A stretch of 64,000 nucleotides of DNA, from the NCBI RefSeq assembly GCF_018687635.1, contig NZ_CP061300.1:124001-188000 (forward strand). Direction: 5' to 3'. Every line of letters begins with the position of its first letter. Within the stretch, counting starts at the first letter, position 1. A program made the translations under genes and the position numbers. Positions 53,171-57,565 of this stretch are shown here, piece by piece. Source of the DNA: Polynucleobacter sp. MWH-Braz-FAM2G (GTDB lineage Bacteria; Pseudomonadota; Gammaproteobacteria; Burkholderiales; Burkholderiaceae). The notes under the pieces were generated by a model, which worked only from the letters and a program-made list of their open reading frames with translations, did no database searches and had not been told where the DNA came from.

Positions 53171-53195
53171 GCAAAAAATCGCAAAACATTCTTTT

Positions 53196-53222
53196 ATGGG
53201 GGTCTCTACCCCCATTTCTTTT
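53196..53222 (+). terminator. Intrinsic terminator after secA
   Basis: ATGGGGGT, CTCT loop, ACCCCCAT form a perfect 8-bp GC-rich stem followed by TTCTTTT. It separates secA from the aldehyde-oxidoreductase operon, so the latter needs its own promoter in 53223-53334. Confidence 0.9.
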
Positions 53223-53252
53223 GGGTGCGAGTTAAAGTAATTCAGGGCTTTC

Positions 53253-53266
53253 CCTAGCTATCTAGG
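53253..53266. promoter_or_regulatory. Small palindrome upstream of the AOR operon
   Basis: CCTAG, CTAT, CTAGG is a perfect 5-bp inverted repeat 69 bp before the ferredoxin ATG. It is a candidate operator half-site pair, but short enough to be chance. Confidence 0.25.
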
Positions 53267-53297
53267 AGCGTCAATATAGATGATTATGTGCGCTTAT

Positions 53298-53313
53298 ATG
53301 CAAAAAATTGCAT
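53298..53313. promoter_or_regulatory. ATGCAA-N4-TTGCAT palindrome just upstream of the AOR operon
   Basis: ATGCAA, AAAA, TTGCAT is a perfect 6-bp inverted repeat ending 21 bp before the first ATG. Position and symmetry suit a repressor or activator site near the transcription start. No known regulator is matched and no regulator gene is adjacent. Confidence 0.4.
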
Positions 53314-53334
53314 TTATGAGCAAAAGGAATCGTC

Positions 53335-53811
53335 ATGCAAAAGTCCCTGCACATCAACGCAGATAAATGCACTGGCTGTCTTCAGTGTGAAATGGCCTGT
53401 AGTTACGAGCACTATGGCGTTTTCAACAACTCTAAGTCTCGAATTAAGGTTTTTGAATTTCATAAAACCGGCAAAAAAGTTCCTTATACCTGTACTCAGT
53501 GTGCTGAAGCATGGTGTCTACAAGCTTGTCCTGTAGATGCAATCCGCGTGGATTTAGTGACAGGCGCCAAGGTTGTTTCTGACGATACCTGTGTTGGATG
53601 CAAGGTTTGTACCATTTCCTGTCCTTTTGGCACCATCAATTATGTTCAGGAGACTGGCAAAGTACAGAAGTGTGATTTGTGTGGCGGAGATCCTGCTTGT
53701 GCGACCGCATGTCCAACTCAAGCGATTACCTATATAGATGCAAATTGGACTGGTTTAGACAAGATGCGTGAATGGGCCGATAAGCTCGGCAATCAAGATA
53801 GCGCTAACTAG
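53335..53811 (+). CDS. aorA: Four-cluster ferredoxin subunit of aldehyde:ferredoxin oxidoreductase (AorA-like)
   Basis: The 158-aa protein has four cysteine groups suited to four [4Fe-4S] clusters: 'CTGCLQCEMAC', 'CTQCAEAWCLQACP', 'CVGCKVCTISCP' and 'CDLCGGDPACATACP'. This is the layout of HycB/CooF-like electron-transfer subunits and of the small subunit of the Aromatoleum-type AorABC enzyme, where it links the tungsten subunit to the FAD subunit. AGGA lies 8 nt upstream of the ATG. It is 19 bp ahead of the catalytic gene, so co-transcribed. The symbol is by analogy. Confidence 0.82.
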   Translation: MQKSLHINADKCTGCLQCEMACSYEHYGVFNNSKSRIKVFEFHKTGKKVPYTCTQCAEAWCLQACPVDAIRVDLVTGAKVVSDDTCVGCKVCTISCPFGTINYVQETGKVQKCDLCGGDPACATACPTQAITYIDANWTGLDKMREWADKLGNQDSAN

Positions 53812-53830
53812 AAAGCATAGGAAAAATATC

Positions 53831-55678
53831 ATGTCATGGGCTGGAAAACTTCTCCGCGTTAACTTAAGCAAGGGCACTTGCCAATCTGAACCTCTGAATA
53901 TGAAGTGGGCCAAAGAATATCTTGGTTCACGTGGCTTAGCCTCTAAATATTTAGTTGAAGAGATCGATCCAAAAGTGGATCCACTTTCTCCGGAAAATAA
54001 AATTATTTGGGCAACAGGTCCCCTAACTGGAACTACCGCCTCTACAGGGGGGAGGTATACCGTAGTCACCAAGGGTCCTTTAACTGGAGCCATTGCTTGC
54101 TCTAACTCTGGCGGTTACTGGGGGGCAGAGTTAAAGATGGCCGGATGGGATATGGTGATATTTGAGGGTAAGTCACCTAAGCCAGTCTATCTTTATATTG
54201 AGAACGATAAAGCAGAATTAATTGATGCCTCTGATTTATGGGGAAGATCAGTTTGGGAAACTGAACCTACAATCAAAATTAAGCATCAAGATCCACAGAT
54301 TCGAGTTTCTTGTATTGGGCGTGCTGGAGAAAATCAAGTTCTTTATGCGGCGATTGTGAATGATTTGCATCGAGCTGCTGGAAGATCTGGAGTTGGTGCG
54401 GTCATGGGTAGCAAGAATTTAAAGGCCATAGCAGTACGCGGCACTAAAGGTGTTGGTAATCTAAAAAATCCTAAAGCGTTTATGGAGTCTGTAGCTGCGG
54501 GTAAGGCAGTTTTGGCCGGTCATGCTGTTACTGGTCAAGGACTCCCCACCTATGGCACACAGGTATTAATGAATGTCATTAATGAGGTGGGTGCGCTTCC
54601 AACTCGTAACCATCAAGATGTGCAATTTGAAGGCGCTAAGGACATTTCCGCTGAGGCGATGGCGGAACCACGTGCAAGTGATGGCAAAACTCATTTAGTC
54701 ACAAATCAAGCTTGTTTTGCATGCACCATTGCCTGCGGCAGGATTTCTAAAATTGATGACACTCACTTCTCTATTGAGAATAAACCTCAGCATATGCATG
54801 CTTCTGGTGGTCTTGAGTATGAGGCTGCTTGGGCTCTTGGAGCAGCGAATGGCGTAAATGATCTAGAGGCTTTGCAATACGCAAACCAGTTATGCAATGA
54901 ACAAGGTTTAGATCCTATTTCATTTGGCGCTACTGTTGGTGCTGTGATGGAGTTGTATGAAATGGGTGTGTTGACTAAGGAACAAATTGGGATTGAAGCT
55001 CCATTTGGATCAGCTAAAGCGCTTTGTTATTTGGCTGAAATCACAACAGAAGGGACCGGCTTTGGAAAAGAGATAGGTCTTGGCTCTGCGCGTCTCACTA
55101 AAAAGTATGGATATCCAGATCTTTCAATGAGTGTTAAAGGGCAGGAATTTCCAGCTTACGATGGACGAGTAATTCAGGGTATTGGTTTGGCTTATGCCAC
55201 ATCAAATCGAGGTGCTTGTCATCTGCGTGGATACACTATCGCATCCGAAGTGTTGGGTATTCCAGTTAAAACTGAGCCAACCGAGACAGAGGGTAAGCCA
55301 GGATTGGTGAAGGCATTTCAGGACGCTACTGCTGCTTTTGATTCAGCTGGAATTTGTATCTTTACAAGTTTCGCTTGGACATTGGCTGATGTGGCTCCAC
55401 AGTTGCAGGCTGCCTGCGGTGATGAGTTTACGGTAGAGAATCTAACCACTATTGGTGAGCGCATTTGGAATATGGAGCGAGACTTTAATAATCGCGCTGG
55501 CTTTACAAACAAAGACGACAAATTGCCTAAGCGCTTAATGGAAGAGGCTGCTAAGACTGGCCCAGGTAAAGGTACGGTTAGTGGTTTAGAAAAGATGCTG
55601 CCTGAGTATTACCAAGTTCGTGGATGGGATGCGGAAGGTCGTCCAAGTGCGGAAACATTGAAGCGCTTGGGTCTTTGA
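53831..55678 (+). CDS. aorB: Tungsten/molybdenum aldehyde:ferredoxin oxidoreductase, catalytic subunit (AorB-like)
   Basis: The 615-aa protein spans the whole AOR family. The N-terminal domain has 'LGSRGLASKYLVEEIDP', 'TGPLTGTTASTGGRYTVVTK' and 'ACSNSGGYWGAELKMAGWD'. 'SCIGRAGENQVLYAAIVND' and 'AAGRSGVGAVMGSKNLKAIAV' bind the bis-pterin cofactor. The [4Fe-4S] ligands are Cys295, Cys298, Cys302 ('CFACTIAC') and Cys509 in 'DSAGICIF', as in Pyrococcus AOR. It oxidises aldehydes to acids, or the reverse, at a W/Mo-bispterin site in the cytosol. ATG 53831 is chosen because the family N-terminus 'SWAGKLLRVNLSKG' begins there. W versus Mo cannot be read from sequence. Confidence 0.9.
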   Translation: MSWAGKLLRVNLSKGTCQSEPLNMKWAKEYLGSRGLASKYLVEEIDPKVDPLSPENKIIWATGPLTGTTASTGGRYTVVTKGPLTGAIACSNSGGYWGAELKMAGWDMVIFEGKSPKPVYLYIENDKAELIDASDLWGRSVWETEPTIKIKHQDPQIRVSCIGRAGENQVLYAAIVNDLHRAAGRSGVGAVMGSKNLKAIAVRGTKGVGNLKNPKAFMESVAAGKAVLAGHAVTGQGLPTYGTQVLMNVINEVGALPTRNHQDVQFEGAKDISAEAMAEPRASDGKTHLVTNQACFACTIACGRISKIDDTHFSIENKPQHMHASGGLEYEAAWALGAANGVNDLEALQYANQLCNEQGLDPISFGATVGAVMELYEMGVLTKEQIGIEAPFGSAKALCYLAEITTEGTGFGKEIGLGSARLTKKYGYPDLSMSVKGQEFPAYDGRVIQGIGLAYATSNRGACHLRGYTIASEVLGIPVKTEPTETEGKPGLVKAFQDATAAFDSAGICIFTSFAWTLADVAPQLQAACGDEFTVENLTTIGERIWNMERDFNNRAGFTNKDDKLPKRLMEEAAKTGPGKGTVSGLEKMLPEYYQVRGWDAEGRPSAETLKRLGL

Positions 55679-55688
55679 GTCGACAGTC

Positions 55689-56945
55689 ATGAAGCACGTC
55701 ATCTTGGGTAATGGCCCAGCAGGAGTTATTGCCGCAGAAATTATTCGTAAGCGAGCTCCTGGTGATCAAATTGTGATGATAGGATCTGAGGATGTTCCCC
55801 CGTATTCTCGAATGGCCATTCCTTATTTGCTCATGGGCATTATTGAAGAATCAGGCACCTATTTACGTAAGGATCCTGAACACTTTCAAAAACTGAAGAT
55901 TGAGCAGATTCATGGCAAAGCCCGTTCTGTTGATCCCAAAGCAAAGAAGTTGGATCTAGAGGATGGTCAGTCTATTTCTTTTGATAAGTTGCTAATTGCA
56001 ACTGGTTCTATCCCTGTTCAGCCACCAATTCCTGGTATTGATTTACCTGGTGTGCATTCCTGTTGGACTATGGAGGATGCACGCGCAATCAGGAAATTGG
56101 CCAAACCAGGCTCACGCGTTTTACAGATGGGCGCAGGTTTCATTGGTTGCATCATTCTGGAGGCGCTTGCTAGTAGAGGGGTTGATCTGACAGTTGTAGA
56201 AATGGGCGATCGGATGGTGCCACGCATGATGACAACTGTTGCGGGCGGCATGATAAAAAAATGGGTTGAAGCAAAAGGCGTTCAAGTACACACCAATACC
56301 AAAGTAGAAGCCATTACTACAACTAATTCTGGTCTGATGGTAATGCTTTCCAATGGAAAATCACTTGAGGTTGACTTAGTCATTTCTGCGACCGGGGTGC
56401 GACCTAACGTTGCTTATTTAAAATCATCTGGTATTGAAATCCAAACCGGAATTTTGGTAAATGAGATGATGCAAACCTCTCATCAGGATATTTATGCCGC
56501 GGGGGACGTGGCTGAAGGGATTGATTTTTCTACTGGTGAGCGAATAGTAAACGCAATCCAACCCAATGCTGCTGAGCAGGCCAGAATTGCTGCGATTGCA
56601 ATGACCGGCGGGGATTGCGAAAGTCTGGGCGCACTGCAGATTAATGTTTTGGATACTTTAGGACTTATCTCATCTTCATTTGGACTATGGTCTGGCGCTA
56701 AAGGCGGTGATCACGTTGAGTTGGTAGATTTGCAGCAGTACAAATATCTTCGTTTAGAGTTTTTAGGAGATGTTTTGATTGGTGCTACTTGCGTTGGGAC
56801 TACAGACCATATAGGTGTGCTTAGGGGCTTGATTCAGGGAAAGATTGCCTTGGGCGGATGGAAAGAAACCTTAATGGGTGATCCGACCAAGGTCATGGAT
56901 GCCTATCTAGATGCAGGGCAAGCGCAGTCAAGCTGGTTCAATTAA
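55689..56945 (+). CDS. aorC: FAD/NAD(P)-dependent oxidoreductase subunit of the AOR complex (AorC-like)
   Basis: The 418-aa pyridine-nucleotide-disulfide-type reductase has FAD motif 'VILGNGPAGVIAAEIIRKRA' at the N-terminus. 'DKLLIATGSIP', the NAD(P) motif 'RVLQMGAGFIGCIILEALAS', and 'DIYAAGDVAEGIDF' follow. It lacks a redox-active CxxxxC pair, as in NADH:ferredoxin/rubredoxin reductases and assimilatory nitrite reductase N-domains. In the Aromatoleum enzyme the equivalent FAD subunit passes electrons to NAD+. It is 10 bp after the catalytic gene. Confidence 0.85.
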   Translation: MKHVILGNGPAGVIAAEIIRKRAPGDQIVMIGSEDVPPYSRMAIPYLLMGIIEESGTYLRKDPEHFQKLKIEQIHGKARSVDPKAKKLDLEDGQSISFDKLLIATGSIPVQPPIPGIDLPGVHSCWTMEDARAIRKLAKPGSRVLQMGAGFIGCIILEALASRGVDLTVVEMGDRMVPRMMTTVAGGMIKKWVEAKGVQVHTNTKVEAITTTNSGLMVMLSNGKSLEVDLVISATGVRPNVAYLKSSGIEIQTGILVNEMMQTSHQDIYAAGDVAEGIDFSTGERIVNAIQPNAAEQARIAAIAMTGGDCESLGALQINVLDTLGLISSSFGLWSGAKGGDHVELVDLQQYKYLRLEFLGDVLIGATCVGTTDHIGVLRGLIQGKIALGGWKETLMGDPTKVMDAYLDAGQAQSSWFN

Positions 56946-56954
56946 GCTCTAGGG

Positions 56955-57209
56955 ATGAAAATTACCCTCAAATTGTTTGCCAGTTTGGCAAGTTATTTAC
57001 CGCCCAACAAAAAAAACGGCATTGAAGCGGATATTGATGTTGCTGATACTTGTACTATAGGCGACATAATTTTGCTATATAAGATTCCCAGCAAATCAGC
57101 TCATTTAGTGATGGTAAATGGGGTTTACATTAAACCCGCCGAGCGTGACCAATATATTCTCAAGCCTAACGATGCCTTAGCTATTTGCCCTCCAGTAGCC
57201 GGTGGGTAG
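56955..57209 (+). CDS. MoaD/ThiS-family sulfur carrier
   Basis: The 84-aa beta-grasp protein starts KITLKLFASLASYLP and ends 'LAICPPVAGG'. The terminal GG is the site that is adenylated and thiocarboxylated in MoaD and ThiS, so the tail is consistent with a functional sulfur donor. Sitting directly behind the AOR subunits, it probably serves pterin-dithiolene sulfur insertion for this W/Mo enzyme, in addition to a housekeeping MoaD elsewhere. That second copy is an assumption. It is 9 bp after the FAD subunit gene. Confidence 0.85.
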   Translation: MKITLKLFASLASYLPPNKKNGIEADIDVADTCTIGDIILLYKIPSKSAHLVMVNGVYIKPAERDQYILKPNDALAICPPVAGG

Positions 57210-57227
57210 TGCTTTCTGATTTAGCGA

Positions 57228-57524
57228 ATGTTGCAATTTGAAAGAAAGATGGGTTGCACCACTGCAGACTTGTTGCGGTGGTTACCCGAAGCGCTAGGCG
57301 AGCTTTACCCGCATACCAGTCTTTTTGTTGATGGCCAATTGTTAAGAGATGTGCATAACCCGCGCTTGCAAATTTTTGGGTCAAGCCAGCCTAAACGCAA
57401 AATCGCGCTTCTAGAGATCCCAGTGCTTGAAGTGAATTTGCGGTTTTCTGAAGACTGGACCGAAAGCGACTGTCAGTCTGTCCTAAATCGATTTGATCTT
57501 TATACTCGCAGGGGTGGAGGCTAG
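57228..57524 (+). CDS. Small protein of unknown function at the end of the AOR operon
   Basis: The 98-aa protein, starting [20 protein letters not shown], has no domain that I recognise. Features are a hydrophobic-polar N-terminal helix, '[31 protein letters not shown]' (read as two beta strands), and an unusual C-terminus RRGGG. It starts 18 bp after the MoaD-like gene and ends 41 bp before argJ. Its position suggests maturation or cofactor delivery to the aldehyde oxidoreductase, perhaps as a chaperone or partner of the carrier; this is inference from context only. The three terminal glycines are intriguing but no beta-grasp fold is evident. Confidence 0.72.
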
Positions 57525-57565
57525 TCCTCAAAACCATTATTGATTTCAATTTACAGAGTACTTTT

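Follow-up and report, generated by a model that had tools for sequence, protein, structure and literature searches.

A predicted tungsten-type aldehyde oxidoreductase operon in a swap site between secA and argJ of Polynucleobacter

The locus studied here, an operon for an aldehyde oxidoreductase (AOR) between secA and argJ in Polynucleobacter sp. MWH-Braz-FAM2G, has close counterparts among described systems. For the enzyme, the counterpart is AorABC(DE) of Aromatoleum aromaticum (PDB 8c0z). AorABC is placed by PMC13328260 in class III, a WorL–WorS–WorN set. For one of the helper genes, it is the MoaD gene beside AOR, for which a role in the tungsten cofactor was suggested in 2006, with Tth among the lineages that carry an AOR-linked MoaD (PMC1779556). 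For the site, it is the replacement islands of P. asymbioticus, which have recombination hotspots in their flanks (PMC5644125).

The window is a 64,000-nucleotide stretch of contig NZ_CP061300.1 (positions 124,001 to 188,000). Within it, positions 53335–57524 are, by homology, an aorABCDE operon. We consider it likely that this NAD-linked bis-pterin AOR operon, with AorD and AorE as cofactor helpers, is one allele of an exchanged secA–argJ swap site, here called the slot. In the 137 genomes classified of 186 in the genus, the slot carries one of three unrelated oxidoreductases or is empty.

Anatomy of the aorABCDE operon

In the window, the last base of secA is 53170 and the first of argJ is 57566. 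The slot, with its AOR allele as classified among 137 genomes, occupies 53171–57565. A terminator-like hairpin lies 3' of secA (stem read at 53196–53215, + strand). Five genes then follow on the + strand: aorA (53335–53811, 158 aa), aorB (53831–55678, 615 aa), aorC (55689–56945, 418 aa), aorD (56955–57209, 84 aa), and aorE (57228–57524, 98 aa), with gaps of 19, 10, 9, and 18 bases. The aorB start is set at ATG 53831 by homology, the GTG at 53768 in the list of open reading frames (ORFs) being too early.

AorB is the predicted catalytic subunit, of the W/Mo-bis-pterin kind. It matches AFOR_N at 275 bits and AFOR_C at 452.6 bits in Pfam-type profile comparison, scores that exclude a chance match. 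Among PDB chains, 8c0z_A scores 1049 bits, far above 9mqx_D (702) and 1aor_A, the Pyrococcus AOR (596). AorA, the small subunit, has 16 cysteines in four groups of four and scores 274 bits to 8c0z_C. AorC, the predicted FAD/NAD(H) subunit, scores 531 bits to 8c0z_E and retains R41, M42, and R179. The cluster cysteines of AorB stand at C295, C298, C302, and C509, and the four AorAa cluster cysteines named in PMC10413684 carry identical numbers. The matches to 8c0z, together with the kept cysteines and AorC residues, indicate that the anatomy is that of AorABC.

A sequence-only reading of the window had proposed much of this: five co-directional genes with gaps of 9–19 bases behind a terminator, a ferredoxin with four [4Fe-4S] motifs, a catalytic CxxCxxxC motif with a late Cys509, the Aromatoleum-type AorABC design, and a MoaD-like carrier ending in GG. 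These observations are confirmed. AorA, AorB, and AorC match the three chain types of 8c0z, and the cysteines on which the catalytic assignment hung are in place. Two results go further than that reading. The 98-aa protein it listed can be identified as AorE, another conserved helper, and the place of insertion is a swap site common to two further unrelated enzymes.

The operon contains a WorL with AFOR_N, AFOR_C, and the four cluster cysteines, a WorS with [4Fe-4S] motifs, and a WorN FAD subunit. By homology, the enzyme is a class III (NAD-linked) tungsten-type oxidoreductase, a kind already known. It shares with the A. aromaticum system the five-gene content, the cluster cysteines, and a MoaD-like AorD, and its AorA aligns to the A. 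aromaticum protein through the C-terminal region. It differs in its Polynucleobacter host and its location in the slot. AorB would oxidize an aldehyde to the acid, AorA would relay the electrons over its four [4Fe-4S] clusters to AorC, which would transfer them to NAD+ through FAD.

The cofactor metal is probably tungsten. The genome also has MoaE and six PF00384 molybdopterin matches, as would suit an AOR that uses molybdenum or acts mainly as an acid reductase. We consider such an enzyme unlikely, as the closest characterized one contains tungsten and no molybdenum and oxidizes aldehydes (PMC6365974). A molybdenum cofactor pathway retained solely for AOR is ruled out by the occurrence of MoaE in 180 and PF00384 in 186 of 186 genus genomes.

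Two loci elsewhere deserve mention. Genome G031 combines a broken aor copy (L199) with two matches to MoaE and nine to PF00384, a pattern suggestive of decaying Mo/W enzymes. On an Azospirillum thermophilum plasmid (L181), AOR and a MoaD-like gene, with no annotated aorE-like gene, are followed by complex-I-like subunit genes, a gene order that hints at membrane-coupled electron transfer.

Alternative cargoes of the secA–argJ slot

ArgJ was located in 183 of 186 genus genomes. We fetched 140 intervals, 4 of them replacing ones that were too short, and with the window 137 genomes were classified. The slot is empty in 64, with 5–172 bp from secA to argJ. It holds an allele for an IorAB-type molybdenum enzyme in 38, AOR in 27, and an ExaC type in 8. 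No other or double cargo was found in the 137 classified slots, and all 73 occupied slots carry one of these three systems. The counts include broken copies of AOR (G031, G034, G051), of IorB (pieces in G033 and G037, a stop in G032), and of ExaC (G035, with a stop in ExaC and split regulator and DUF779 matches). For two AOR slots (G158, G118), coverage ran just from aorC to argJ; in G109, the secA end was reached in one reading and missed by a stricter script. Among the 49 unclassified genomes are several whose AOR lies outside the slot or at a contig end.

AorB matches occur in 43 of the 186 genomes and in 31 of the 144 good ones, to which the slot reading adds G158 and G118, where contig ends cut the gene. 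SecA and ArgJ stand beside AOR in 11 of 80 named AOR loci, some of which end early; all 11 have AorB identities of at least 90%. Different DNA thus lies at one site in related genomes with conserved flanks, as in a replacement island. In the slots of the window, L204, L257, and L263, the ORFs read include no integrase, and scans for tRNA genes in the window's slot and 12 other loci found none.

The sequence-only reading had taken the operon for an accessory aldehyde-detoxifying or acid-reducing module within a conserved secA–argJ block. This interpretation is partly supported: the accessory status and the conserved pair are borne out, and aldehyde detoxification and acid reduction are possible roles. 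Accessory status agrees with the 43 of 186 genomes and the 64 empty slots. That the two genes are close neighbors in many Burkholderiales stands within Polynucleobacter, the genus to which the comparison extends.

The IorAB allele comprises a [2Fe-2S] subunit and a 707-aa MoCoBD protein, and it reaches no NCBIfam cut-off. The best PDB match of IorB is 8gy3_C, an aldehyde dehydrogenase large subunit (E 2.5e-83), followed by aldehyde oxidase (1.6e-25) and PaoC (about 2e-22). By this resemblance only, IorAB may be an aldehyde oxidizer. The ExaC allele comprises ExaC, DUF779, and a GAF/Fis-type regulator on the opposite strand. Its ExaC scores 955.7 against the NCBIfam cut-off of 900 for acetaldehyde dehydrogenase. 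AOR and slot-type IorB never occur together in a genome; independence would predict about 9 such genomes, although related genomes are not independent. AOR and ExaC occur together in one genome (G119), as do IorB and ExaC (G110).

Several points weigh against a slot for aldehyde oxidation. With only three cargo types, the slot could reflect as few as three independent draws from among common enzymes, the XO family and ALDH, and IorAB is a putative aldehyde oxidizer by resemblance. ExaC of at least 87% identity is found in 18 genomes, in 8 of them in the slot, and it also occurs elsewhere in the genome. The case is also sequence-based throughout. The slot might then be a mere insertion-tolerant gap between housekeeping genes, with the shared aldehyde oxidation a coincidence and AOR an ordinary accessory operon. 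We regard this as unlikely, because all 73 occupied slots hold the same three cargoes. Moreover, slot-type IorB (at least 79% identity) occurs in 39 genomes, in the slot in 38 (the slot of G151 is unresolved) and in none of the 43 AOR genomes.

Slot state is inherited as well as exchanged. On a flank tree of 133 genomes, omitting 4 without secA, state changes number 31 against 59 with shuffled labels, which indicates inheritance of state too. An unlinked tree gave 29 changes against 31.3 shuffled, a value equally low in 40 of 200 shuffles. This is a quick tree from three genes beside moaE, for 60 of the 137 genomes, picked with mixed states in mind. On it, starred sister pairs differ in cargo: G185 AOR and G113 ExaC, G014 AOR and G017 empty, G077 AOR and G080 IorAB, and G102 AOR and G103 IorAB. 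An approximately unbiased (AU) test rejected holding the AorBs of G092, G093, G094, and G185 together (p 1.7e-48). These are the AOR holders in the starred seven-genome clade of the unlinked tree, a group named after AorB identities had been seen. The differing cargo of sisters and the conflict between AorB and host indicate an accessory operon that is exchanged in place.

The operon might instead be ancestral at secA–argJ, with many losses and with the tree conflicts due to error. The inherited part of slot state fits this, as do the three decayed AOR copies in slots. So does the AorB tree, which sets 23 slot AorBs apart from three non-slot rows (two identical, with long branches flagged). 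Even so, we consider an ancestral operon quite improbable. Co-inheritance is rejected by the AU test, and in three genomes of outer clades (G016, G025, G117) AOR lies elsewhere and the slot is 14 bp. Other alleles also replace the operon and do not just delete it.

Exchange in place is probably by recombination in secA and argJ. The most likely route for alleles to pass from one species to another would be homologous recombination in these two genes, with one aldehyde-oxidizing system replacing another. PMC5644125 reports mutS/mutL loss in a Polynucleobacter group; by analogy, this loss and flank recombination would offer a ready route for allele exchange. The P. asymbioticus islands likewise place alternative DNA at one site with flank recombination. 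Those named there are cell-surface and giant-gene islands, whereas the slot carries small metabolic cassettes for three unrelated oxidoreductases. The words "aldehyde," "argJ," and "secA" do not occur in the portion of PMC5644125 available. Among literature titles and abstract openings, with subscription journals mostly outside the scope, none names a secA–argJ slot.

The helper proteins AorD and AorE

AorD would provide sulfur for the pterin dithiolene. It matches PF02597 (ThiS family) at 32.5 bits, against a cut-off of 22.5, and ends in PPVAGG, with the GG of a sulfur carrier. The PP[IV]AGG end is present in 97 of 99 extracted copies, a set that counts a few genomes twice; the other two copies are cut by locus ends. 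PMC11323500 supports a ubiquitin-like carrier role in tungsten cofactor synthesis; PMC1949818 yielded nothing relevant. The clusters of PMC1779556 also have a MoaD gene adjoining AOR, and their description there, as far as available, includes neither AorE nor a swap site.

The window's AorE matches no Pfam or NCBIfam model. It ends in RRGGG, and all 71 of the 71 copies extracted keep the RGGG tail unchanged. AorE occurs in 25 of 300 genomes of the order, all among the 30 with an AorB match. By coordinates, aorE lies within 5 kb of aorB in 20 of the 25. In three genomes (L139, L141, L147) aorE is divergent, upstream of aorA; its position in the operon is therefore not fixed.

Both aorD and aorE are described in PMC6365974 as "resembling" MoaD and as putative maturation factors. 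That wording and the GG-type tail would fit AorE as a second beta-grasp MoaD paralogue rather than another fold. We hold this to be very unlikely. The predicted AorE structure (mean pLDDT 90.9) has the element order E-H-E-E-E-E-H and matches, with weak scores, the second, non-MoaD domain of the Thermus "MoaD related protein" 1v8c. The ThiS/MoaD family is absent from the 10 families matched by 68 AorE members at E values up to 1. MoaE is not among the listed fold matches, which excludes nothing. DUF1952 (PF09189, cut-off 22 bits) was matched by one of the 68 members, at E 0.012 only, short of family membership. PF09189 had no match in the window's own genome, nor had DUF1952 on plasmids.

By sequence and predicted fold, 1v8c (ThiS plus DUF1952) looks like a natural AorD–AorE fusion. 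Its MoaD domain ends in PPVAGG, and the second domain that follows ends in an identical RGGG tail. It is one fused protein, whereas the window has two genes, and the relation of the second domains rests on weak scores. MoaX, a MoaD–MoaE fusion, also joins MoaD to a partner domain, but that partner is MoaE, not DUF1952. Among the best 120 of 7288 matches, three apparent AorD–AorE fusions (P0032, P0033, P0086) were not counted. They look like frameshifted or chimeric reads, since either the end of the MoaD part or the second half is garbled.

AorE, with its DUF1952-like predicted fold and flexible RGGG tail, would act with AorD to make or insert the cofactor. Recombinant activity was 4.5 U/mg with aorABC, 16 with aorABCDE, and 85 with aorABCDE plus tungstate (PMC9295118). 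The tungsten content in the same report, 0.39 versus 1.06, was lower for aorABCDE without added tungstate, which weighs against the helper role in its simple form. AorE thus gains a likely structural relative in 1v8c, and the RGGG tail is a sharp mutational target.

Junctions, candidate operators, and in-place replacement

In a comparison by eye, all 21 alleles start at the stop codon of secA, and most have a hairpin of their own there. The AOR type runs up to the start of argJ; about 25 bp 5' of argJ are common to the other types. Within these bases, a TACAAT box is present in 38 of 38 IorAB, 6 of 6 ExaC, and 48 of 64 empty alleles, and in 48 of the 49 empty alleles of at least 55 bp. It is absent from all 25 AOR alleles (57525–57565 in the window; L183–L202). 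Behind the AOR allele, argJ is therefore probably expressed from another promoter or by read-through.

A candidate operator, the inverted repeat AGGG-N4-CCCT, lies at 53244–53255, at −91 of aorA. Of the aorA genes compared, 20 of the 22 in slots and 21 of the 67 elsewhere have it 5' of the gene, against shuffle averages of 0.1 and 0.2. A looser form precedes exaC in 8 of 8. For iorA, the full form is found in 0 of 38 and the looser form in 1 of 38, at chance (shuffles 0.6). The right half, CCCTA, is present within the left 230 bp in 36 of the 38 IorAB alleles, a count without chance control. As a control, argJ of empty slots has the full form in 0 of 64. Same-cargo rows are relatives, so the shuffles overstate the motif case, a point against a shared operator. 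A second palindrome 5' of aorA, ATGCAA-N4-TTGCAT, reads directly at 53298–53313. It recurs in 20 of 24 slot AOR alleles, the 25th having N's there.

A genome-wide AGGG-N4-CCCT regulon was tried and rejected. G000 has 10 sites against 10 in the reversed control and G063 has 7 against 11, with no enrichment. One kind of site common to the two genomes lies 5' of a NuoE/NuoF-fusion gene. A perfect ACTAGGGTTTACCCTAGT palindrome precedes this gene in the window's genome (L392, 1340–1760), the gene resembling a formate-dehydrogenase- or hydrogenase-type diaphorase. The palindrome resembles the box before aorA. A near copy of ACTAGGGTTTACCCTAGT precedes the same gene in G063 (L387, 1300–1620).

A bolder reading, possible but doubtful, is that secA–argJ serves aldehyde oxidation as a functional slot, in which three unrelated folds (W, Mo, and no metal) would be swapped in place under a related operator. 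The allele might follow metal supply or aldehyde type. That operator may be AGGG-N4-CCCT at aorA, its variant at exaC, and its right half at iorA. AorE would be a non-beta-grasp partner of AorD with a ubiquitin-like RGGG tail.

The AOR enzyme belongs to a kind already described. What the slot adds to the known replacement islands and cases of non-orthologous displacement is that three unrelated oxidoreductases replace one another in place. Non-orthologous displacement is usually viewed as a finished event between distant lineages. Here it appears to be recurring at a single site in close relatives, several of them with single-contig genomes; which enzyme wins and why is open to study by allele swaps and by comparison of tungsten, molybdenum, and aldehyde supply.
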